64,000 bases of DNA from Candidatus Sulfotelmatobacter sp. (GCA_025462865.1 JAOAPI010000084.1:54039-118038), one strand, 5' to 3'; positions 41,995 through 59,436 are shown, numbered from the stretch's first letter. The notes: generated by a model not told the origin, from the letters alone. Translations and numbers: made by a program.

Positions 41995-42091
41995 GGAAGC
42001 GCATGCGGTCCGGTGATCGTCCCGGTCTTCAAAACCGGCGGGCGGCAGGTTTCCTGTCACCGGTGGGTTCGACCCCCACTCGCTTCCGCCA
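41995..42091 (+). tRNA. selC: tRNA-Sec (anticodon TCA)
   Basis: GGAAGCGCATGCGGTCCGGTGATCGTCCCGGTCTTCAAAACCGGCGGGCGGCAGGTTTCCTGTCACCGGTGGGTTCGACCCCCACTCGCTTCCGCCA; loop CTTCAAA, 6-bp D stem GCGGTC/GATCGT, long variable arm, encoded GCCA. Confidence 0.94.
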
Positions 42092-45026: not shown

Positions 45027-48000
45027 CTAGAAGTAGAACTTCAGAGCAAACTGCAACTCCCTCGCTCCTTGTGACCCGGTGATGCGGCCAAATATAGGAC
45101 TGGCGGGATCGAAAGACCCGTTCGCGGGACCACCCGTGAATGTCCAGACCGGATGGTTAAGTGCATTCAGCGCCTCCCATCGGAATTCCAGCCGCGTCTT
45201 TTCGGTGACCAGGAAGTTCTTGTGTAAGCTCAGATCAAGGTTGGCGTATGCCGGGCCTCGAACGTTGCCTACGCTGCAGGTTCCGAACGTATTCGGAGCC
45301 GCCGGACTTACGTTCGAAGGGTCAATCCACTGAACAAAGGCTGGGGCTCCCGGAGTTGCATTCGCCACTACTTTCTGATTTAAGACCTTAGGTCGACCGT
45401 TGCAGTCCGGCAGATTTGCCAGGGTATAAGGTCCAATGCCGTTAGTGTTGTCTGAGTTTCCGCCGACGCCCCAGCCTCCAAAGTTATTCAGCGTCAGAGC
45501 GTTTCCGCTGTGCAGGGTGACAATCCCGCCAATCTCCCAGTTTCCGAGGACGGCATTCAGAGCGGGATTCATGTCATGGCCAAACTGCTTGCCGTGGCCC
45601 AGAGGCAGTTGGTAAGTGACGTAACTGGTCAGAATGTGGGTCTGATCGTAGTAGCACGGCCCCCAATTCAATCGTGAGTTGTAAATGTTCTCCCAGCCGG
45701 GTTGCCCGCCCGAACTGGTCGCGTTGATGCTTCCCCAACCCGTTCCGAAGTATCCCGGCGAGTTGCTCATGCACTTGGACCAGGTGTATGCAATCTGGCC
45801 CTCCAGGCCGTTACTCATTCGCTTTTGCAGAACAGCCTGAAGCGCGTTGTATTTCTGATCGGAATTCGACATGTTGGCGCCAGCCAGAGTTTCGTGACCA
45901 AAACAAGCTGGGTTGCCGGCTGTTCCGCAATTCGGAGCATTGAATTGAGGGTTATCTGCAAGATAGAGGGAGCCAGCTGTTCCTCCGCCCAGGAACGGTC
46001 CGGGAACCCGGCTGGTGATAAGTTCTCCAGCTCCTGCAACCTTCCCTTGCGCGTTTAGCGGGATGGATTGCGCAACATCCTCAAAGTTCAGCAAATGCGA
46101 CCCCCGCTGGCCTACATACCCAAGCTGGAAGGTCAGCGAGTTGCTCAGTTGCTGCTGGAATGTAAGGTTCCATTGGTCGACCATGGCTGGCTTAAAGTTC
46201 TGATCAAAGATCCGGAGCCGGACTCCGCCTTCATAGCAAGCCTGATTGATGCCGCCCGGGCACTGTGTACTGGTCGCCGCTCCGAAACCGTTCGAAAGAG
46301 TTCCAATTCCGCCCGCAGCCTGTTGCTGGAGAATACCGAACGGCAGGTTTAGTGTGAGTTCTTCGTTGCTGCCGCCCCCTTCCATAAATTCCGAGATCCC
46401 AAAGCCCGCACGAATCACGGTTTTGCCGCCCAGAGCCGCGGGCGACCAGGCAAAGCCTACTCGCGGCAGCCAATCGCCAATACCCAGGTAATTGTTGTAA
46501 AGGGCTCGATTGCCGAATTTGGCAGTCCCGTCAACACCGTTCGGAGTGTAAATCGTCCCTGTAAATAGTCCGAAGTTCACCGATCTGTTATTTACTTCGT
46601 AGAGCGGAGTGTGATCCTCGAATCGCATACCGAGATTGACGGTCAGAGTATTGGTTACGCGCCAGTCATCCTGCGCGTAAACACCGAAGACATTTCCACG
46701 GAGTTTCGCGGGATTGCTGACAACGCCGCCCGTATCTCTGAGTGATTGCGTTCCGCCCACCACGTTGCCAAGCCAGAAGTCAGCCAGGCTGGAGCCACTC
46801 GCGGAGCCCATTGTCAGGAACCCGAGCGCGCCATTGTTCCCCTGGTAAATGTAATCCTGCCGTTCCCTGATGTACTGGAATCCGGTTTTAATCTGGTGAC
46901 GGCCGTGGGTGAAAATCAAGTTGTCTTCAAACTGGGCCTGCGTAGTGTGAAACACCTGAATCAGGTTTTGGAGACCGAGGGCGGCCGACCCTCCGTTGTT
47001 GCCCGTAATATTTAGCTGAACCAGCCCGGGCCCCTGCAGATTTCCGCCGTTTATCCCGAGCTGTTGGCTGATGTTTCCCAGCGATGAAGTGGGCGTGGCA
47101 CGGGAATCGAATCGGACTGCGTTGAAGCCGAAACGAGCTTCATTCAACACATTCGCCGTGAGCGTGTGCGTCCAACTAACGACTGCGTTCCGGACGGGCT
47201 CGTCGCTCCCCTCTGTTGCGCCGGAATTACAGAAAACACAGCCTGTAAATGTAGGCTGCGTTAGATCCATTTGGGACCACCGTCCGAAGATGTGGTCCTT
47301 CCGCGAGATGTTGTAGTCGATCTTCAGATCGCCTTGATTGTTGTTCAGATTGCTTCCGCTGTTGTAAAAAAAGTTGTTTGCGGCAAGGGTGTTGACTGAT
47401 GGCAACGGATAGTACTTGGTCATGCCGAATATGGCCGATGCCACCGGATCGATCGTGAGGCCGGCAGCAGCCAGATTGTTGTTAGCAACCGCTGTCGGTT
47501 GCGAACCGCCCGCGGGAATTTCTGCCGGGTTCAAGTAATACAGATTGTTTGTCCCGCCCGAATTTGGAATGACAAGCTGATTTCCCACGACGGGAGCTGT
47601 ATTTTTGGGGTTTCCACTCGAATCCAGGTCCAGTGCGTTTGGCCCCAGAGCAGCGTCACCGCAGATACCCGCCCCGCTAAAACCGCTCTGGCAAAGCTGG
47701 GCGAAATCTCCGGCGCGAGCCTGCGCGGTAAGAAGTTGGGCGCCAGTCTGCCCGCCAGTGATCTGACGCTGGGCCTGAAAATCTGCAAAAAAGAACAGCT
47801 TGTCCTTTATGATCGGTCCGCCGAAGGTGCCACCGAACTGGTTGTATCGTAGCTCGGGCTTATTTTGAACTCCCTGAGAGTTAAATCCGAGAATACCGTT
47901 GTCTACGCCCCGGGTCCATCCCGCAGAGGCCTTGTTGGCATCCAGTGCGTCGTTGCGGAAAAATTCGAAGACGTTCCCGTGAAAATTGTTCGTCCCCGAC

Positions 48001-48746
48001 TTAGTGCTCACGCTTACGACTCCGCCCTGGTAGTTACCGAACTCGGCTGAGGCATTCTGGGTGATCAGGTTGAATTCCTGGATCGCATCAATCCCAGGGG
48101 TGTAACCGACCTCGTTATTTTTGTCCTCGCTATTGATGATGCCGTCCACCAGGTACTCATTTGCCTGCTCACGGTTGCCGTTAATGTAAGGGCGTCCCGA
48201 GTTGAGCATGTTTTGCGGTTGACGCATGCCGTCCGGATCAACGTTGGTTACACCGGGAGCGAGGAGGGTAAGCTGAAGGTAGTCGCGCGAGGCAAGCGGC
48301 AAGCTGACATTAGTGTTGGCGTCGATTACCGTACTCACCTCTGTACTCTGCGTCTGCAGAATCGGAGCCTCTCCCGTGACTTCAAGTATTTCGCTGACCT
48401 TGCCAACCTTCATCTGCACGTCCACGCGAGCCGTTTGATTCAGCACCAGCTCAAAGGGAGGATGCAGTGCGGTCTGGAATCCAGGAGCGGTAACCTTCAC
48501 GTCGTAAGTTCCGATCGGAAGCCGCGCGATGGTGTACACCCCTACGTCACTCGTAACTGCGGTCCACACCGTACCCCGTTCCGTGTCCCTGGCCGCGACT
48601 ACCGCTCCGTTGAGAGGTGAGCCGCTCGAGTCCGTCACGGTGCCCACAATGCCCGCTGTAACTTCCTGGCCCCAAGCCGGAGTCAACACAGCTGCAAGCC
48701 CCATCACTGTTAGCAGAACCAGACATCCAGTCGCCGGTTTTTTCAT
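45027..48746 (-). CDS. TonB-dependent receptor, Oar-like, with carboxypeptidase-regulatory-like N-terminal domain
   Basis: AGIVGTVTDSSGSPLNGAVVAARD, plug-like region, C-term LQFALKFYF; start set at MKKPATGCLVLLTVMG (ORF track 48773). Confidence 0.93.
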   Translation of the reverse strand: MKKPATGCLVLLTVMGLAAVLTPAWGQEVTAGIVGTVTDSSGSPLNGAVVAARDTERGTVWTAVTSDVGVYTIARLPIGTYDVKVTAPGFQTALHPPFELVLNQTARVDVQMKVGKVSEILEVTGEAPILQTQSTEVSTVIDANTNVSLPLASRDYLQLTLLAPGVTNVDPDGMRQPQNMLNSGRPYINGNREQANEYLVDGIINSEDKNNEVGYTPGIDAIQEFNLITQNASAEFGNYQGGVVSVSTKSGTNNFHGNVFEFFRNDALDANKASAGWTRGVDNGILGFNSQGVQNKPELRYNQFGGTFGGPIIKDKLFFFADFQAQRQITGGQTGAQLLTAQARAGDFAQLCQSGFSGAGICGDAALGPNALDLDSSGNPKNTAPVVGNQLVIPNSGGTNNLYYLNPAEIPAGGSQPTAVANNNLAAAGLTIDPVASAIFGMTKYYPLPSVNTLAANNFFYNSGSNLNNNQGDLKIDYNISRKDHIFGRWSQMDLTQPTFTGCVFCNSGATEGSDEPVRNAVVSWTHTLTANVLNEARFGFNAVRFDSRATPTSSLGNISQQLGINGGNLQGPGLVQLNITGNNGGSAALGLQNLIQVFHTTQAQFEDNLIFTHGRHQIKTGFQYIRERQDYIYQGNNGALGFLTMGSASGSSLADFWLGNVVGGTQSLRDTGGVVSNPAKLRGNVFGVYAQDDWRVTNTLTVNLGMRFEDHTPLYEVNNRSVNFGLFTGTIYTPNGVDGTAKFGNRALYNNYLGIGDWLPRVGFAWSPAALGGKTVIRAGFGISEFMEGGGSNEELTLNLPFGILQQQAAGGIGTLSNGFGAATSTQCPGGINQACYEGGVRLRIFDQNFKPAMVDQWNLTFQQQLSNSLTFQLGYVGQRGSHLLNFEDVAQSIPLNAQGKVAGAGELITSRVPGPFLGGGTAGSLYLADNPQFNAPNCGTAGNPACFGHETLAGANMSNSDQKYNALQAVLQKRMSNGLEGQIAYTWSKCMSNSPGYFGTGWGSINATSSGGQPGWENIYNSRLNWGPCYYDQTHILTSYVTYQLPLGHGKQFGHDMNPALNAVLGNWEIGGIVTLHSGNALTLNNFGGWGVGGNSDNTNGIGPYTLANLPDCNGRPKVLNQKVVANATPGAPAFVQWIDPSNVSPAAPNTFGTCSVGNVRGPAYANLDLSLHKNFLVTEKTRLEFRWEALNALNHPVWTFTGGPANGSFDPASPIFGRITGSQGARELQFALKFYF

Positions 48747-48811
48747 CACGTAGCCTCCTGAAGCATTTGCCACTTAGGCGTCACAAATAAAGCCCTAACG
48801 GAATCGCACTA

Positions 48812-51260: not shown

Positions 51261-53369
51261 GTGTTCTTGGGGAGGAATATGAGAAGAAGTCAGCGTGGCT
51301 TGCTATGGCTGGGTGTGTCCTTCCTTGGGTTGCTGGGCTTTTCCGTCATTTCGATGGCGCAGACTTCTCCCGAATCGCAGGATGCCGTTCCCGTAACCAG
51401 AGACTTCAGCCATAAACATGTCATCTTCTCCAGACCGGCGACGCCAGCACAAGTCTCCCGCGTTCAGCAGGACGTTCGTTATTGGCAGCAGCTCTACCGT
51501 CGTCAGTCCGGGACGATTTCGCCGTCGGAACAGATCGGCTCGAACCTAAATACGAAGCGCGACTGGTCGAAAAGCATGGGAAGCGGCGCTAGCGTGGGCG
51601 CCGGGAACTATCCTGCCAAATACTCATTTTCTCTCACTACGGCAAACTGCGGAACCGCGACTCAGCCTGACTTCACGGTGTATAACACGGGTCTTTCCGG
51701 ATCCGCGACGCAAGCGAGCATCGTAGCCTACTACAACCTTTACTCCGGCTGTACTGGAACCGTACCTTCGGTTTACTGGGCCTATAACACCGGCGGGAAT
51801 GTAAAGACTGCTGTGGCGCTCTCCTTCGACGGCAAGCAGGTTGCTTTTGTGCAAACGCTTGCCGGTCACGCAAGGCTGGTGCTGTTGAAGTGGGCCGCGT
51901 CTACTACCCAGAGTGTAAGCAATCCCGGAACCCCCACGCCTGTATCTCTGGCATCGTACCCAACCTGTACGGCGCCATGCATGACCGGATTTGTTCTCAC
52001 AGACTCCGTGGGCACGGTCAACGACGACACTACATCCTCAATCTTCTACGTCTACAATGACGATTCCGCCTATGTCGGAGATAGTGCCGGCTGGCTGCAT
52101 CAGTTTACCGGCGTGTTTAAGGGAACGCCCACGGAGGTGAGGACGGGCGGCTGGCCGGTGCACGTGAATCCTTCCACCTCGAAGGCTCTCACCGTCGGAG
52201 TTCACGATTTTTCCTCGGGTAAAACTTTTGTTGGAGACGCCGGTGGATTCTTGTATCGCGTGAGTCCTGCGGCGGCCGTAACCGCTTCGGGGCAGTTGGA
52301 CTTCGGTGTAGGCATCGTACAAGGCCCGATCATCGATCCGACGGCTGCAAAGGTTTATGTATTTGCGTCAAGCGACGGCTCTTCGGCTTGCACTGGTGGC
52401 GTCAATTGCGCCAGTGTATACGCCCTGGGCTTCAGTTTCGCGGCGGGCAATACAGGAACGAAGAAGACAGTAGGAATTAGTACTCTCACAGGAACCGCGC
52501 CAAATCCCCTCTACATCGGCGACTTCGACAGCACTTATCAAAATTCGGTGAACTCAACCGGAAATCTTTATGTTTGCGGCAACACCGGCGGGCCCCCCAT
52601 CCTGTACAAAGTTCCGATTGCAGCTGGCGTTCTCGGGACCGCTACCGCTGGATCGGTTCTTTCGACGAGTACTACGCCCTGCTCTCCGGTAACTGATGTG
52701 GTGAATCCCAATATTGCGGGAGGCTTAACGGAGTGGGTATTCGCCAGTGCCGATATAAACGGGACAGGTGCCGGTTGCGCCGGCGGATGCATCTACAATT
52801 TCAAAAACACCCCTTGGCAGGCGTCGACCGCGTATGCAGTTGGCCAGGAAGTGGTGGATAGTTCCTTCCATATTCAGGTTGTCACGGTTGCGGGTACTTC
52901 CGGAGCGACCGCCCCCGCATGGAGCGCTACCGGGGGCACCACGACCACCGACGGAACAGTTACGTGGTTTAGCCAGGGAGTGACGAGTGCCGGTACCCGG
53001 GCAGTATGGGTGCGTCTTAACCACTATCCCGTGGGCAGCAAGATTTTGGATGGCAACAATAATATCGAAATCGTAAAGGTCTCCAACGGGAATGGTAACT
53101 CCGGGGGCAATCTGCCTACGTGGAATACCACAGTCGGGGGCACTACGGCTGATGCCGCTTTGACTTGGACGAACCTGGGGCCGAATTCCTCATCGTCCCT
53201 CCCTTCAGCCGGAGGCACCAGTGGCATCATTATCGACAACACCGTCAGCTCAGGGACGTTGGCGGGTGCGTCTCAGATATATTTCTCCACTCTGAGCAAC
53301 CAGACTTGCGCGACGTCCGGTACGACAGGCGGTTGCGCGGTGCAGGCGTCGCAGGCAGCGCTACAGTAG
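51261..53369 (+). CDS. Large secreted protein of unknown function
   Basis: Signal peptide GLLWLGVSFLGLLGFSVISMAQ; two WxxxxxYxVGxxVxD...GTVTWxxxG-like repeats; 17 bp upstream of the precursor peptide gene. Confidence 0.75.
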   Translation: MFLGRNMRRSQRGLLWLGVSFLGLLGFSVISMAQTSPESQDAVPVTRDFSHKHVIFSRPATPAQVSRVQQDVRYWQQLYRRQSGTISPSEQIGSNLNTKRDWSKSMGSGASVGAGNYPAKYSFSLTTANCGTATQPDFTVYNTGLSGSATQASIVAYYNLYSGCTGTVPSVYWAYNTGGNVKTAVALSFDGKQVAFVQTLAGHARLVLLKWAASTTQSVSNPGTPTPVSLASYPTCTAPCMTGFVLTDSVGTVNDDTTSSIFYVYNDDSAYVGDSAGWLHQFTGVFKGTPTEVRTGGWPVHVNPSTSKALTVGVHDFSSGKTFVGDAGGFLYRVSPAAAVTASGQLDFGVGIVQGPIIDPTAAKVYVFASSDGSSACTGGVNCASVYALGFSFAAGNTGTKKTVGISTLTGTAPNPLYIGDFDSTYQNSVNSTGNLYVCGNTGGPPILYKVPIAAGVLGTATAGSVLSTSTTPCSPVTDVVNPNIAGGLTEWVFASADINGTGAGCAGGCIYNFKNTPWQASTAYAVGQEVVDSSFHIQVVTVAGTSGATAPAWSATGGTTTTDGTVTWFSQGVTSAGTRAVWVRLNHYPVGSKILDGNNNIEIVKVSNGNGNSGGNLPTWNTTVGGTTADAALTWTNLGPNSSSSLPSAGGTSGIIIDNTVSSGTLAGASQIYFSTLSNQTCATSGTTGGCAVQASQAALQ

Positions 53370-53386
53370 GCAGAGAGGACATAACT

Positions 53387-53557
53387 ATGGGCATAACTCA
53401 TTCGTCCAGCGACGGACCAGACGATCTGGCGGCCAGGAAGAGGCCCTACGAGAAGCCAAGTTTTCGCTTCGAAGAGGTCTTTGTGACCTCAGCGCTTTCC
53501 TGCACGAAAGCGCCTAATGAGACAAATTGCAAGTTCGGTCCTAAAAAGGTCTCATAA
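53387..53557 (+). CDS. Putative RiPP precursor peptide (56 aa)
   Basis: AGAGAGGAC RBS then MGITHSSSDGPDDLAARKRPYEKPSFRFEEVFVTSALSCTKAPNETNCKFGPKKVS; YxxP-type leader motif, Cys-containing C-terminal core; stop overlaps next start (TAATG). Confidence 0.75.
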   Translation: MGITHSSSDGPDDLAARKRPYEKPSFRFEEVFVTSALSCTKAPNETNCKFGPKKVS

Positions 53558-54060
53558 TGCAGGAGTGCCATGAGATGCGCAATGTTCTTGCCGCAAAGTG
53601 CGAACTGGCAGGTGAGATTTTGCGCTCTTTCGGAAGTTTTCGTTTTACTGCCACCGGCTGGAGCATGCTTCCGGCACTCTGGACCGGCGACACGCTGATC
53701 GTTGAACGCATCAACCCCGATCAATACCAGGTCGGAGATATCGCGCTCGTCGGACGTCGAGGCACGCTATGTGCCCACCGCGTCGTCTGTCTTCCGGAAA
53801 ATAATGGCGGTCGATTCTGGATCACTCAAGGAGACGCAATTCCCGCACCAGATCGACCGGTGCTCGAAGCTGAGCTCTTGGGCCGCGTAACTCAGCTTAT
53901 TCGGTCGGGGAAGTCCATCTCCGTCTCCGCAAATCTAAGAGGGATCAAAAAGCTGCTTGCACAGGTTGTGCGGCGTTCAGCTTTTGCGGCTCGTGTTTTC
54001 GTGTACGTCGCGAGCAAGGTTCGAGCTCAGAGAGAAGCCATCCTTCCGTGCCAGGGCTAG
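53557..54060 (+). CDS. S24/S26 (SipW-like) signal-peptidase family protein
   Basis: TATGWSMLPALWTGDTLIVERI (Ser box) and LCAHRVVCLPENNGGRFWITQGDAIPAPD (His in place of Lys). Confidence 0.82.
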   Translation: MQECHEMRNVLAAKCELAGEILRSFGSFRFTATGWSMLPALWTGDTLIVERINPDQYQVGDIALVGRRGTLCAHRVVCLPENNGGRFWITQGDAIPAPDRPVLEAELLGRVTQLIRSGKSISVSANLRGIKKLLAQVVRRSAFAARVFVYVASKVRAQREAILPCQG

Positions 54061-54863
54061 CCACACAAATCGCGCATTACAGCGTGGTCATTGCGATTGG
54101 CGATGTCGCGATCCGGTTGAACACCATCGACGCGGATTTTTTGGAGATTCTCCACCACCGTTACTCGGGATTCGTGAGCCCGGCAGCACACGCAGAATTC
54201 GAATTCGATGTTGACCTCTTGCCTCCACCGTTCACCGATTCGCAGGTAGATCTGAGCGTCACCCAGCGTGCCGGTCGATGGGTACTGGATCGAGGCGATT
54301 TTCGCGCCGAGTGGGACCCGGCAGCGGGCCGCGGCAGCATCCGCCAGAGTGCGAATCCATATTCGATCGACGCGGTTCTGCGCATCGTCCACACGCTGGT
54401 TCTGGCAAAACAAGGTGGCTTCCTACTGCACTCCGCCAGTGCCATTCGCAACGGGAAGGCATTTCTTTTTGCCGGGGTTTCAGGCGCCGGCAAGACGACG
54501 ATTTCGCGGCTCGCTCCGCCCGATGCCACTCTTTTGACCGATGAGATCTCCTACGTTCGCAAACGGGATGACGGTTATGTTGCTTTCGGCACGCCATTCA
54601 CTGGAGAGCTTGCCAAATTGGGCGAAAATCGTTCAGCGCCGGTGAGGGCTCTCTACTTGCTGGCCCAGGGTCCGGAAAATCGCATTGAGCCGGTGAACGC
54701 TGCGGAAGCTGGGCGCCAACTGCTCGCTAATATGCTTTTCTTTGCTGAAGATCAGGAAATCGTTCACCGGGCATTCAATGCCGCATGCAACTTTGTCGAT
54801 CGGGTTCCAGTATTCAGGCTTACCTTCGTTCCGGACGCGCGCGTATGGGAGATGATTGGATGA
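54048..54863 (+). CDS. HPr-kinase-like P-loop protein
   Basis: GGFLLHSASAIRNGKAFLFAGVSGAGKTTISRLAPPDATLLTDEISYV; overlaps neighbours by 13 nt and 4 nt (GTG start). Confidence 0.8.
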   Translation: MPGLATQIAHYSVVIAIGDVAIRLNTIDADFLEILHHRYSGFVSPAAHAEFEFDVDLLPPPFTDSQVDLSVTQRAGRWVLDRGDFRAEWDPAAGRGSIRQSANPYSIDAVLRIVHTLVLAKQGGFLLHSASAIRNGKAFLFAGVSGAGKTTISRLAPPDATLLTDEISYVRKRDDGYVAFGTPFTGELAKLGENRSAPVRALYLLAQGPENRIEPVNAAEAGRQLLANMLFFAEDQEIVHRAFNAACNFVDRVPVFRLTFVPDARVWEMIG

Positions 54864-55183
54864 ATAAAAAACTCTACGTCGCCCGAAGTCCCCGAATCGC
54901 GGCCCGCCAGCTCGGCGAAGAAATGCTGGTCATGTCTGCTCAGGGTTCGACACTGTTTACTTTGAACCAAACCGCGACTGTCCTATGGCAGGCTGCCGAT
55001 GGGAAAACTACATTGGAGGAAATCGTCGAGCGCCGCATCTGTTCTGAGTTTGAAGTGACGCCCGAAGACGCTATCCGCGACGCCGAGGACTTGGCCGAAG
55101 ATCTCGCTAAACATGGCATCCTCCTGGTTTCAGAGATCCCAATCCCAAGCCGGGACCCTGTCTTACAGGAGCAAATTCGATGA
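54860..55183 (+). CDS. PqqD-family RiPP recognition element protein
   Basis: QLGEEMLVMSAQGSTLFTLNQTATVLWQAADGKTTLEEIVERRICSEFEVTPEDAIRDAEDLAEDLAKHGIL; ATGA overlaps on both sides. Confidence 0.88.
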   Translation: MNKKLYVARSPRIAARQLGEEMLVMSAQGSTLFTLNQTATVLWQAADGKTTLEEIVERRICSEFEVTPEDAIRDAEDLAEDLAKHGILLVSEIPIPSRDPVLQEQIR

Positions 55184-56334
55184 GCTTGATGGCGGAGATG
55201 GGGGAGCGGGCGCATCGGCTGGGCGTTCCTTTCAGCGTTCAACTCGATCTCACCTATCGCTGCAATGAACAATGTGTTCACTGTTATCTCGATCACCATG
55301 ATCACGGCGAGATGACAACCGCCGAAATCAAGAAACTCCTTAGAGAGATGGCAGACGCCGGCGTTTTCATCCTGACCCTGAGCGGCGGCGAGATTTTTCT
55401 ACGCAAAGATTTTTTCGAGATTCTCGAATATGCGCGCGCGCTTACGTTCTGCATCAAGCTAAAGACCAATGCGGTTCTGATCCGCGAAGCGCAGGCAGCG
55501 AGACTTCGCGATCTGGGTGTGGAATCGATCCAAATCAGCATCTATTCGCACCGGCCGGAAGTGCATGATGCCATCACCAAACTTCCAGGTTCTCTGCGGC
55601 GCTCGATCAAAGCCATTCGCTTCCTCAGATCGCAAGGCCTCAAAGTCGTCATGGCTAATGTTCTGATGACCCAGAACATGGATGACTACCCGAGCACCCG
55701 CGCTTTGGCAGATGAGCTTGGCGCCGAATACACTCTGGATCCGACCGTGACCCCGATGATGGATGGGGATCGCGCCGTCCTGGATTTGAACGTTGGCGAA
55801 TCGGCCCTCCGCCGCGTTTTTCGCGACGAAACTCTCGTCGGCAATGCCGACGAATTCTGTGCGCCGCCGCGCCCGCTCGATGACGACAGCATGGACTCTA
55901 CGCCCTGCAGCGCCGGTCACACGGCCTGCTATGTCTCTCCTTATGGCGAGTTCTATCCGTGCGTGCAATTTCCTTTGTCCTGTGGGAACGTCCGGCAACA
56001 GAGCTTTATCGATATCTGGCACAACTCCGAGCAATTGAAAGAGGTCCGATCGATTCGCCTGCGCGATCTCTCCAGTTGCTCGCAGTGCGCGCATGGCGGG
56101 AGTTGCACTCGTTGCCCGGGCTTGGCATTTCTGGAAGGAAACATGCGCGGCCCTTCCACTGCGGATTGCGAGAGATCTTTCGCCCGAACCGGCATTCCCT
56201 CCGCCAATCTGCTGGCGAAGAAGGATAAGGATAAAGTATCCCCTGCACGCCTCGTACAAATCCAACTTGTGCCTGTAATCACCGGCGTCAGGCTGTTGGA
56301 AATGAGCAGCGCGGCCTGTACGTTAGCGTCGTAG
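55180..56334 (+). CDS. Radical SAM/SPASM peptide-modifying enzyme
   Basis: DLTYRCNEQCVHCYLDHH (CxxxCxxC), LSGGEIFLRKDFFEIL, SPASM cysteines CSAGHTACYVSPYGEFYPC...CSQCAHGGSCTRCPG. Confidence 0.93.
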   Translation: MSLMAEMGERAHRLGVPFSVQLDLTYRCNEQCVHCYLDHHDHGEMTTAEIKKLLREMADAGVFILTLSGGEIFLRKDFFEILEYARALTFCIKLKTNAVLIREAQAARLRDLGVESIQISIYSHRPEVHDAITKLPGSLRRSIKAIRFLRSQGLKVVMANVLMTQNMDDYPSTRALADELGAEYTLDPTVTPMMDGDRAVLDLNVGESALRRVFRDETLVGNADEFCAPPRPLDDDSMDSTPCSAGHTACYVSPYGEFYPCVQFPLSCGNVRQQSFIDIWHNSEQLKEVRSIRLRDLSSCSQCAHGGSCTRCPGLAFLEGNMRGPSTADCERSFARTGIPSANLLAKKDKDKVSPARLVQIQLVPVITGVRLLEMSSAACTLAS

Positions 56335-56376
56335 GGCCATCCCTTCCCCGACCTGCTGCCGTATACTGCTCGACCT

Positions 56377-57423
56377 ATGGCCAATATTCTCTACGGAGTG
56401 AATGGCGAGGGTGCCGGACATTCCACCCGCGCCAAGGAAGTGCTCACTCATCTGCGGCAGCAGGGACATAGTTTGCACGTCGCCTCGTTCGACCGGGGAT
56501 TGCTCAATCTCCGCGACCATTTTGAAGTCACTGAAATTTTCGGGTTCCGCTTTGCCTACGTGAATAATCGTGTGCGCTACAAGCGCACCATTGCGAAGAA
56601 CCTGGTGACAATGCCCCAGGCGGGAAAGAGCGTAAGAGAGATCAAGGAGTTGATCAAGAGTTCGAAGATCGATCTTGTGATCACCGACTTCGAACCGCTC
56701 ACTTGCCACGTCGGGCACAGAATGGGCCTGCCGGTTATCTCTATCGATAATCAACATTGCCTGACCAACGCGGTCGTCTCTTATCCCCGCAAGTACCATC
56801 GCGATGCCGCGGCTGCAAAACTTCTGACTCGGCTGATGACTCCCCACGCCGATGCCTACCTGGTCATTTCCTTTTTCACGGCACCGGTGAAGAAGCGAAA
56901 CACGTTCTTGTTTCCACCGCTGTTGCGACAGGAAATTCTCCAGGCCGCCCCCACGCAAGGCGAGTATGTACTCGTGTATGTAACTTCTCCCGCGCCATTG
57001 CTGGCGAAGGTGCTGAGCACCGTCCGCGGAAAATTCATTGCCTACGGTTTCGGCCGAGAGGGCACGGAAGGAAACACTGTCTACAAGAAACCATCACTCG
57101 ATGGATTTCTTCGTGATCTCACGGGAGCCGGAGCCGTCATTGCCAATTCCGGATTTTCATTGGTCACCGAGGCTCTACATCTGAGCAAGCCCTATCTGGC
57201 CGTTCCAGTCGAGCATCAGTTCGAGCAGATTTTTAATGCCTACTGGTTACAGAAAACCGGTTATGGCGCGTACTGGGAAGACTTGAATAAAGAGCGCGTC
57301 GAATCGTTCCTCTACAACCTGCCCCTATATCGCGACAAGCTCGCCGACTATCCCCGGCAAGGCAACGGCGCGCTACTCGCTAAGCTTGATGATCTAATTG
57401 TTGAGCAACGCCGGGCCTCTTAA
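56377..57423 (+). CDS. MJ1255/VC2487-like glycosyltransferase
   Basis: MANILYGVNGEGAGHSTRAKEVLTHL, GAGAVIANSGFSLVTEALHLSKPYLAVPVEHQFEQIFNAYWLQK. Confidence 0.85.
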   Translation: MANILYGVNGEGAGHSTRAKEVLTHLRQQGHSLHVASFDRGLLNLRDHFEVTEIFGFRFAYVNNRVRYKRTIAKNLVTMPQAGKSVREIKELIKSSKIDLVITDFEPLTCHVGHRMGLPVISIDNQHCLTNAVVSYPRKYHRDAAAAKLLTRLMTPHADAYLVISFFTAPVKKRNTFLFPPLLRQEILQAAPTQGEYVLVYVTSPAPLLAKVLSTVRGKFIAYGFGREGTEGNTVYKKPSLDGFLRDLTGAGAVIANSGFSLVTEALHLSKPYLAVPVEHQFEQIFNAYWLQKTGYGAYWEDLNKERVESFLYNLPLYRDKLADYPRQGNGALLAKLDDLIVEQRRAS

Positions 57424-57590
57424 CCGGAGCCTTGCCCGGCGCCGGCAACCGATTCCAGAAAAAGTAGTGTCTTTTGTCCTTGTTCGTTTTCCGTGCCGAC
57501 TAGCGCACGTTCGTAATACAAGGCGAGCGGTGATCCCAAATAGCATTGGTAGTAGCAGTCATTACTTCCTCTAGTCTGGGAGGGTCTTTC

Positions 57591-58127
57591 ATGGGTATCA
57601 AATGCGGCTTGCTTCCCCGACTGACGGCTGCGGCCATTTTTTTTGCCGGTACTTCCTACGCTCAAGATGCACAGCCGCTTGGGGACCTCGCCCGCCAGCA
57701 CCGGCAGCAGGCGGCGGCAACTCCGAAAAAGGATGCCAGCGCATCGAAGGTGATCACCAACGAAGAAATTCCTGAGCAACCGGACGAAACGCCAGCCACC
57801 GTCAACAAGCACGGTAATGGTGGGAACTCCACGCCTTCAGCTTCCAACAAGACAAAGCAGCCGGCGGAGTACTGGAAGTCGCGCATTCAGGCGCAAAAAG
57901 CCCAGATCGCCTCGGTTCAAAAAAGAATAGACGAGATTAATAGTTCAATTCGTTTTTCGTTCGTTAACTGCGGCACCAGTTGCGATCTCCGAAACGAACG
58001 GCAGAGAACCAAGCAACAGCATGTGGAGCAGATGCAAGGGCAATTACAAGTCCAGAAGAGGGAGTTGGAAGATACGCAGGATGCCGCTCGCAAGCAAGGC
58101 TATGGCAGTTCGGTTTACGACCCGTAA
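57591..58127 (+). CDS. Hypothetical secreted coiled-coil-rich protein
   Basis: Start set at MGIKCGLLPRLTAAAIFFAGTSYAQ; Gln/Lys-rich helical C-term. Confidence 0.6.
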   Translation: MGIKCGLLPRLTAAAIFFAGTSYAQDAQPLGDLARQHRQQAAATPKKDASASKVITNEEIPEQPDETPATVNKHGNGGNSTPSASNKTKQPAEYWKSRIQAQKAQIASVQKRIDEINSSIRFSFVNCGTSCDLRNERQRTKQQHVEQMQGQLQVQKRELEDTQDAARKQGYGSSVYDP

Positions 58128-58154
58128 CAGTCACAACATCTGACAGAAATCGAA

Positions 58155-58186
58155 CCGCCGTGCCTCAATGTCAGCGGCGGCTTTTT
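58155..58186 (+). terminator. Putative terminator between convergent genes
   Basis: CCGCCG...CGGCGG then CTTTTT. Confidence 0.5.
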
Positions 58187-58208
58187 CCTGAGCCCAACTC
58201 AAGAACTA

Positions 58209-58808
58209 CTAACTGCCGGCTTTTTTCGCCGTGTAAGGATTCGGATATTTCAGAATCGTGGATAGGTCCGTGCCACGGATAATGCCGGCGGAATAGTAGA
58301 ACAATCCCCATGCGTCGATCGTGGAATTATCGGGAAAGATGCAGGCATCCAGAATGTAATCGGTTGTGTTCGGCATCACCCATCCTCCGCCTGCCGCGTT
58401 GATGCCGCCAAACAGATCTGTTCCGCCAAGTTGCGTGCAATATTGGGATGCCGGATTTCCTCCTCCCTGACCGTTCCATGGAGTCTGAGCGTAGTAGGCC
58501 AGTGCCGCGAGCGAAGGCTTTGGTGTGAACAGGGTATGCAGCGACACATGAATGCGCGAGCCGTCCGCAGCCAGCGTGTACTGGCAAAAGTCTTCGCTAC
58601 CGGAGAGCAGCAGCCAGTCCTGTATTGGACCATTTGTGTTGTAGGCCGGAATACGGGTTTCAACTTTTCCGCCAGTGCTGATGCAGTAGCCTTGCGCCGT
58701 ACTTGCCACGGGGGCTCTGCTGTTCGTTTTTGCGGTTTGCGCGGTAGCGCCTAAAACCGCACACAACATCAAAACCGCAATTCCAACAACTTCTCTAGTT
58801 GCCCGCAT
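58209..58808 (-). CDS. Hypothetical secreted protein
   Basis: Start set at MRATREVVGIAVLMLCAVLGATAQ (ORF track 58949). Confidence 0.6.
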   Translation of the reverse strand: MRATREVVGIAVLMLCAVLGATAQTAKTNSRAPVASTAQGYCISTGGKVETRIPAYNTNGPIQDWLLLSGSEDFCQYTLAADGSRIHVSLHTLFTPKPSLAALAYYAQTPWNGQGGGNPASQYCTQLGGTDLFGGINAAGGGWVMPNTTDYILDACIFPDNSTIDAWGLFYYSAGIIRGTDLSTILKYPNPYTAKKAGS

Positions 58809-58977
58809 ATCGTTTTCCTCAGTGGCGTGCTCAACGGTTCGATTCAAAAGCCACCGAAGTCTACCATGCGCGGCTGTTTTGACCGGCTGCATCCAGAATC
58901 GAACATACGTAAAGTTTTCCTGATCTTTTCGCGTTCCCATCTTCCACAAGAGGTCTCATACATGCGAAATTAGTTGC

Positions 58978-59436
58978 ATGGCCTTGGTTGTCCGTCCCTC
59001 CCGCATTCATGCCGCTGGTGTGTTCACTACTACGCCGGTTCGCAAAGGTACCCGCGTTGTCGAATATACCGGCCCTCGAATCACGCCTGAGGAAGCCGAT
59101 CGCTTGTACGATACCGCGCCTCGCACTTACCTCTATGGTCTGGATGACGGCAAGACGGTCATCGATGGCGAGGGCCTGGGCGCGTACCTGAACCACTCCT
59201 GCGATCCCAACTGCGAAATCGATGAAATAAAAAAACGCGCCTGGATTTTTGCCCTCCGAGACATCGCTGCCGGTGAAGAACTGCTCTGGGATTACAACTT
59301 GTACGACGATGATGATCCAGCGCCCTGTCACTGTGGGTCGCCCAAATGCCGTGGCACCATGTATTCGCGCGAATGGATCGCCAAGCTGCGACGCAAGACC
59401 GCGCGAAAGAAGACACGAAATAAGAAATTAAGATAA
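58978..59436 (+). CDS. SET-domain protein lysine methyltransferase-like protein with post-SET Cys cluster and basic tail
   Basis: GVFTTTPVRKGTRVVEYTG, YLNHSCDPNCE, GEELLWDYN, CHCGSPKCRGTMYSREW, tail KLRRKTARKKTRNKKLR. Confidence 0.92.
   Translation: MALVVRPSRIHAAGVFTTTPVRKGTRVVEYTGPRITPEEADRLYDTAPRTYLYGLDDGKTVIDGEGLGAYLNHSCDPNCEIDEIKKRAWIFALRDIAAGEELLWDYNLYDDDDPAPCHCGSPKCRGTMYSREWIAKLRRKTARKKTRNKKLR

Follow-up and report, generated by a model that had tools for sequence, protein, structure and literature searches.

The closest described system to the operon reported here is that of the linear polyphosphorylated peptides (LPPs), encoded by lppAKBSDN in Paenibacillus alginolyticus (Nat Commun 2026; PMC13381572). 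LppS, the SipW-like peptidase of LPP biosynthesis, depends on the RRE for cleavage, which falls after F-E-T and is abolished by each of the substitutions S29A, H68A and D93A (PMC13381572). The lasso kinases PadeK, ThcoK, SyanK and PsmK each add phosphate to the C-terminal Ser of their precursors, and in the pseudomycoidin pathway PsmN, annotated as a nucleotidyltransferase, is needed to add a hexose to the phospho-Ser (PMC9266682). The lasso kinase BsfK (PMC10368454) and LppK (PMC13381572) target Ser3 of the core instead of the last residue, so that phosphorylation by this group of kinases is not confined to the terminus.

The window analysed here is a stretch of 64,000 nucleotides from Candidatus Sulfotelmatobacter sp., a soil acidobacterium whose 6.08-Mb genome assembly is 98% complete and has its closest relatives among the Acidobacteriota. 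Within it, the interval 51261-57423 had been described in an earlier note as a candidate RiPP operon with genes for a precursor, an S26 peptidase, an HprK-like kinase, a PqqD-type RRE, a radical SAM/SPASM enzyme and a glycosyltransferase. We find six co-directional genes with four tight junctions, as described, together with a large secreted-protein gene at the start of the interval (BIG) that the note had left unnamed:

51279..53369, + strand, BIG, a secreted protein and predicted beta-propeller (alignment, model, PDB fold matches, co-occurrence)
53387..53557, + strand, precursor peptide of 56 aa (44 distinct homologues and codon pattern)
53489..53554, + strand, SALSCTKAPNETNCKFGPKKVS, the core peptide predicted for an LPP-like leader cleavage behind T34
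53557..54060, + strand, soluble S26B (SipW/Sec11-type) peptidase, predicted leader peptidase (conserved triad, no TM-like stretch)
54048..54863, + strand, HprK/PEPCK-fold peptide kinase (family match, motifs, predicted fold, BsfK motif of PMC10368454)
54860..55183, + strand, PqqD-family discrete RRE, predicted to bind the YxxP leader (PF05402, 53.7 bits)
55180..56334, + strand, radical SAM/SPASM maturase (Radical_SAM 82.6 bits, SPASM 44.1 bits)
56377-57423, + strand, glycosyltransferase (Pfam Glyco_trans_1_3, 427 bits)

The operon is real. Its junctions can be read in the sequence as first reported: the precursor stop and the S26 start are fused as TAATG (53555-53559), the S26 gene and the GTG-initiated kinase gene overlap by 13 nt, and ATGA overlaps join the kinase to PqqD (54860-54863) and PqqD to the radical SAM gene (55180-55183). 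Pfam upheld the PqqD, Radical_SAM, SPASM and glycosyltransferase calls, and those of the S26 peptidase and the kinase, which score below Pfam threshold, are backed by family matches, motif conservation and predicted fold. Scanning GTDB genomes with the kinase of the window yielded 31 loci, nearly all in MAGs of Acidobacteriaceae/Terriglobia, three being labelled proteobacteria (L032, L034 and L035) and one being an unrelated weak match (L037). The order precursor, S26, kinase, PqqD, radical SAM recurs in nearly every untruncated related locus, and a radical SAM gene lies near most of the more distant kinases too. The glycosyltransferase did not hold up as an operon member, and was rejected from the cassette, since a homologue adjoins the operon in only two related loci (L007 and L011). 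No plasmid relatives of the operon were found, no exporter or MsbA-like gene was present among the ORFs examined around it within the window, and ABC-type matches occur near only a few related loci. Taken together, the genes and motifs make it probable that this is a RiPP pathway producing a phosphorylated, radical-SAM-modified, two-cysteine peptide.

Other features of the window and the host genome were recorded alongside. Downstream of the operon lie genes for a secreted coiled-coil-like protein (57546-58127), a small secreted protein encoded in the opposite direction (58209-58949) and a SET-domain-like protein (58978-59436); these three genes (57546-59436) are conserved at this position in up to ~11 close relatives and probably represent shared synteny rather than pathway parts. 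At 45027-48773, on the - strand, is a gene whose large product, with its signal sequence and carboxypeptidase-regulatory-like start, we take to resemble the TonB-dependent (Oar-like) proteins; such proteins are common in Acidobacteriota. The window also holds a tRNA-SeC with anticodon tca (41995-42091), and contig C8 of the host genome carries a selB gene that scores above the cut-off of its family, so that the acidobacterium probably decodes selenocysteine.

The precursor carries YEKP (residues 21-24) and FVT (32-34) in its leader, C39 and C48 in its core, and a terminal S56. Alignment of 44 distinct homologues gave the consensus Y-x-[K]-P-x-[FY]-R-x-E-x-[V]-F-[VE]-[T]-x-A-[L]-x-C-[G]-K, followed by a variable stretch, a second Cys 8-10 residues on and a final Ser 6-9 residues further; one homologue has Asp for the consensus Glu, and another carries a third Cys within its leader. 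All 44 end in Ser, against a background of ~10% of ORFs in related loci, while the penultimate residue is free (V, S, N, A, T, R, L, I or K), and further precursors fetched by profile search gave the same terminal-Ser result. One cassette precursor, in L143 (L143:5367-5546), has an in-frame stop and a different end, and is probably broken or mis-assembled. Two further precursors persist in that genome, both adjoining a BIG gene; the local precursor may have been replaced by these distant ones, an assembly error being the other possibility. Among 30 homologues, leader codon differences fall mostly at position 3 (4990, against 1679 and 1624 at the others), from which we conclude that the small ORF is translated, and core codons show 1987 nonsynonymous versus 421 synonymous differences, a pattern indicating purifying selection on leader codons but not on core codons.

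The small ORF is thus conserved across homologous loci, and its absence, which the earlier note had named as grounds for abandoning the RiPP reading, was not what we found. Among genomes of the same family, the precursor occurs in 39 of 40 that bear the kinase and in 0 of 160 others, so that the proposal of a post-translational modification system is well supported, the glycosyltransferase falling outside the conserved set. In distant Acidobacteriota families, beside kinases only ~30% identical to that of the window, 11 small YxxP/WxxP ORFs lie on the kinase strand, all ending in Ser and containing at least two Cys, and one more such ORF, in L088, lies on the opposite strand; the selection was made by eye among the results of a motif scan that also yields a few chance ORFs not ending in Ser. 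A convincing precursor was not found in three of the 14 distant loci (L081, L082 and L086).

The S26 peptidase conserves S36, H74 and D93/D99 in at least 95% of 33 sequences, and a membrane-like segment is absent from all 33. It scores 48.4 bits against the archaeal-type signal peptidase I family (cut-off 51.85), and its nearest solved sequences, the SEC11 signal peptidases, are weak matches. By analogy with LppS, this soluble Ser/His/Asp peptidase would act with the RRE to remove the leader after F-V-T34. Since LppS cuts after F-E-T and F-[VE]-T is nearly invariant in the precursor alignment, cleavage after T34, predicted to release SALSCTKAPNETNCKFGPKKVS, is the preferred assignment. A signal-peptidase-type cut before C39 (53501) is possible, A-L-[SAT] preceding this Cys in nearly all precursors; it is ranked second because of the LppS precedent and because A-x-x-C is also present in distant clusters in which no S26 gene was found.

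The kinase model (pLDDT 90) finds PEPCK and HprK/P as its PDB fold matches. Its residues H128, G143-x-x-G-x-G-K149-T and D165-E166 correspond, with near-identical spacing, to the catalytic residues of BsfK, H148/G163/G166/G168/K169/S170/D186 (PMC10368454), except that Glu takes the place of the second Asp of the Asp-Asp pair found in lasso kinases; in an alignment of 34 kinase sequences, H128, the P-loop and D165 show little or no variation. Given its match to lasso kinases acting on a C-terminal Ser, and given that the terminal Ser of the precursors is invariant, Ser56 appears the likeliest phosphorylation site, which the enzyme would phosphorylate, perhaps repeatedly, on the precedent of paeninodin and pseudomycoidin.

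PqqD, well above its Pfam cut-off (53.7 versus 23.4 bits), has the lasso RREs TbiB1 and TfuB1 as its best solved relatives, and from lasso and LPP precedent it would bind the YxxP leader and present the precursor. The radical SAM enzyme conserves C28-x3-C32-x2-C35 and the SPASM cysteines C243, C261, C300, C303, C309, C312 and C330. Among solved sequences, the sactipeptide maturase SkfB is the nearest to it (E 2e-15), and its best-scoring families are those of heme, mycofactocin and related enzymes, with scores that all fall far short of the curated cut-offs. In what is the least certain step of the proposed pathway, it would modify the core C-G-K-x(6-8)-C-x(6-8)-S. Because the core has two invariant cysteines and no lanthionine or YcaO enzyme accompanies it, the chemistry is most simply read as Cys thioether formation, with links from C39 and C48, although sequence cannot decide the matter.

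A gene of family PF14907 (NTP_transf_5) directly follows the radical SAM gene in about a dozen related loci and lies nearby in others. It is absent from the operon of the window; the only copy in the host genome is on another contig (G000:C8:145436-146185; L187:7296-8489), and shares 57% identity with the clustered copy of a relative (L017), so that the PF14907 step may be supplied in trans. The host gene stands alone, unlike that clustered copy, which suggests that it has been relocated. The enzyme may glycosylate or nucleotidylate the phospho-Ser.

These features raise the question of whether the operon is simply an LPP-family pathway, with phosphorylation as the main modification and the radical SAM change minor or unrelated. 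The common peptidase/RRE/kinase core, the YxxP and F-x-T leader and the PF14907 gene in the genome (PMC13381572) all speak for it. We nevertheless consider it unlikely: in nearly all untruncated close loci examined the radical SAM gene is part of the operon, and it persists near most distant kinases, Ser3 of the LPPs is not conserved in this precursor family, and LPPs are described as Bacillota-restricted in a paper that makes no mention of radical SAM (PMC13381572).

BIG (696-702 aa) has an N-terminal hydrophobic signal and was modelled as a propeller with a mean pLDDT of 66 overall and of 70-93 across most of the propeller. Its PDB fold matches are generic propellers, and no Pfam family of its own was found. 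In 200 genomes of the same family, BIG and the kinase occurred together in 37, the kinase alone in 3, BIG alone in 4 and neither in 156; BIG thus occurs in 37 of the 40 genomes with the kinase and in 4 of the 160 without it, counts that are lower bounds in that the genome search scored best candidates only. The Fisher p-values of ~1e-32 ignore shared ancestry and, the genomes being related by descent, overstate the significance. A separate sample of 297 genomes from across the phylum gave strong BIG matches in none but the six that carry the close kinase, two other genomes matching over a short or partial region only.

BIG often lies on a contig other than that of the kinase, and among 17 precursors located apart from the kinase, nine have a BIG gene no more than 3 kb away (e.g. 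L129, L132, L164 and L177). One of these nine (G338; L191) has S26 and radical SAM genes adjacent and its kinase on a different contig, and may be a split cluster. Judging from the co-occurrence and from these orphan precursors, BIG tracks the precursor as much as it does the enzymes. Several BIG genes may accompany a single kinase gene, with three in a row in L119 (G435:C185) and copies on four contigs in G265, and BIG appears to have expanded in these two genomes. By this observed association, BIG is a dedicated, co-inherited partner of the precursor. The peptide would act with the secreted propeller, and we tentatively propose, with rather less confidence than in the pathway itself, that the phosphorylated, radical-SAM-crosslinked peptide may be a dedicated ligand, cargo or activator of BIG, precursor and propeller forming movable two-gene modules, several of which could share a single central set of enzymes for maturation in trans.

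A beta-propeller partner co-inherited with the precursor could also be the apo-enzyme of a peptide-derived redox cofactor, made as PQQ is by PqqD/PqqE; the combination of PqqD with a SPASM radical SAM enzyme, and MauE/redoxin genes near two distant loci, are consistent with this. Here, however, the conserved Glu/Tyr pair that is fused in the PqqA core is absent, core sequences differ between species as those of a cofactor would not, and no PQQ-dehydrogenase domain was detected in BIG, which makes this reading very improbable. Still harder to credit is a decayed or alternative lasso-peptide pathway of the paeninodin type with its cyclase encoded elsewhere. The YxxP leader, lasso-type RRE, terminal-Ser kinase and PF14907 enzyme would suit it, but it was rejected because no cyclase or B2 peptidase was seen among the conserved neighbours of the 31 loci, and the putative core starts with S/M/T-A-L or Cys, with no conserved Gly1 or ring acid. 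Membership of the SynChlorMet (Scm) cassette of NCBIfam (HprK-like ScmC, PqqD-like ScmD, radical SAMs ScmE and ScmF), to which the best NCBIfam families of the kinase (ScmC, E 3.8e-15) and of the RRE (ScmD, E 1e-6) belong, has a comparably slight chance and was rejected, all four scores lying below curated cut-offs (ScmC 56/125, ScmD 28.7/100, ScmE 105/400 and ScmF 61/400 bits), with one radical SAM enzyme instead of two and no match of the distant kinases to ScmC at 1e-10.

We are thus left with a probable RiPP pathway of phosphorylation and radical SAM modification. That it fits no textbook RiPP class, as first proposed, is a fair statement, with the qualification that the set is only partly new, since the LPPs have the same peptidase/RRE/kinase core (PMC13381572). 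Our literature search, which covered the texts of open-access papers, found none that places an HprK-like kinase, PqqD and a radical SAM enzyme in one RiPP pathway, nor any description of the precursor/propeller pairing; the novelty of the combination is to that extent provisional. Acidobacteriota are a phylum with few characterised RiPPs, the predicted C-terminally phosphorylated, crosslinked peptide is testable by simple co-expression, and a precursor co-inherited with a propeller even when apart from the enzymes provides a handle on what these peptides are for.

With sactipeptide and ranthipeptide maturases (SkfB, AlbA, StsB and PapB) the system has in common a SPASM radical SAM enzyme and a Cys-containing substrate, but its scores fall below the cut-offs of those families, its cluster includes a kinase and its thioether is only predicted. 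The SynChlorMet cassette (TIGR04248-TIGR04251) likewise combines HprK-like, PqqD-like and radical SAM/SPASM proteins, whereas the set of the window adds an S26 peptidase and a propeller. Paeninodin and pseudomycoidin (PadeK, ThcoK, PsmK and PsmN; PMC9266682) share with it the HprK-like kinase, the C-terminal Ser of the precursor, a nucleotidyltransferase-type enzyme after the kinase, the YxxP leader and the RRE, but in place of the lasso cyclase and cysteine protease B2 there are here an S26 peptidase and a radical SAM enzyme. Likeness to the LPPs extends to the soluble SipW-like Ser/His/Asp peptidase, the discrete RRE, the HprK-like kinase, the YxxP leader with F-x-T before the core, the lack of a lasso cyclase and, with less certainty, a PF14907-type enzyme, which is in the LPP cluster and here in the genome and in the cluster of many relatives. 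Of the LPP leader motif, YxxPxVLxHQxIxFETxxS, the precursor of the window has YxxP and F-[VE]-T, no HQ, and Leu at core position +3, its FVT lying two residues nearer YxxP than does FET. The LPP cluster has an MsbA exporter, the operon of the window none, and LPPs belong to Bacillota, whereas this system is found in Acidobacteriota and a few proteobacterial records. What sets it apart from the LPPs is the extra radical SAM/SPASM enzyme, the two core cysteines of the precursor, its invariant terminal Ser in place of core Ser3, and the dedicated secreted propeller. It is perhaps best viewed as an LPP/paeninodin-like phosphopeptide pathway with a predicted radical SAM step in place of the lasso cyclase; if this is true, the logic shared by LPPs and phosphorylated lasso peptides gains a third architecture.
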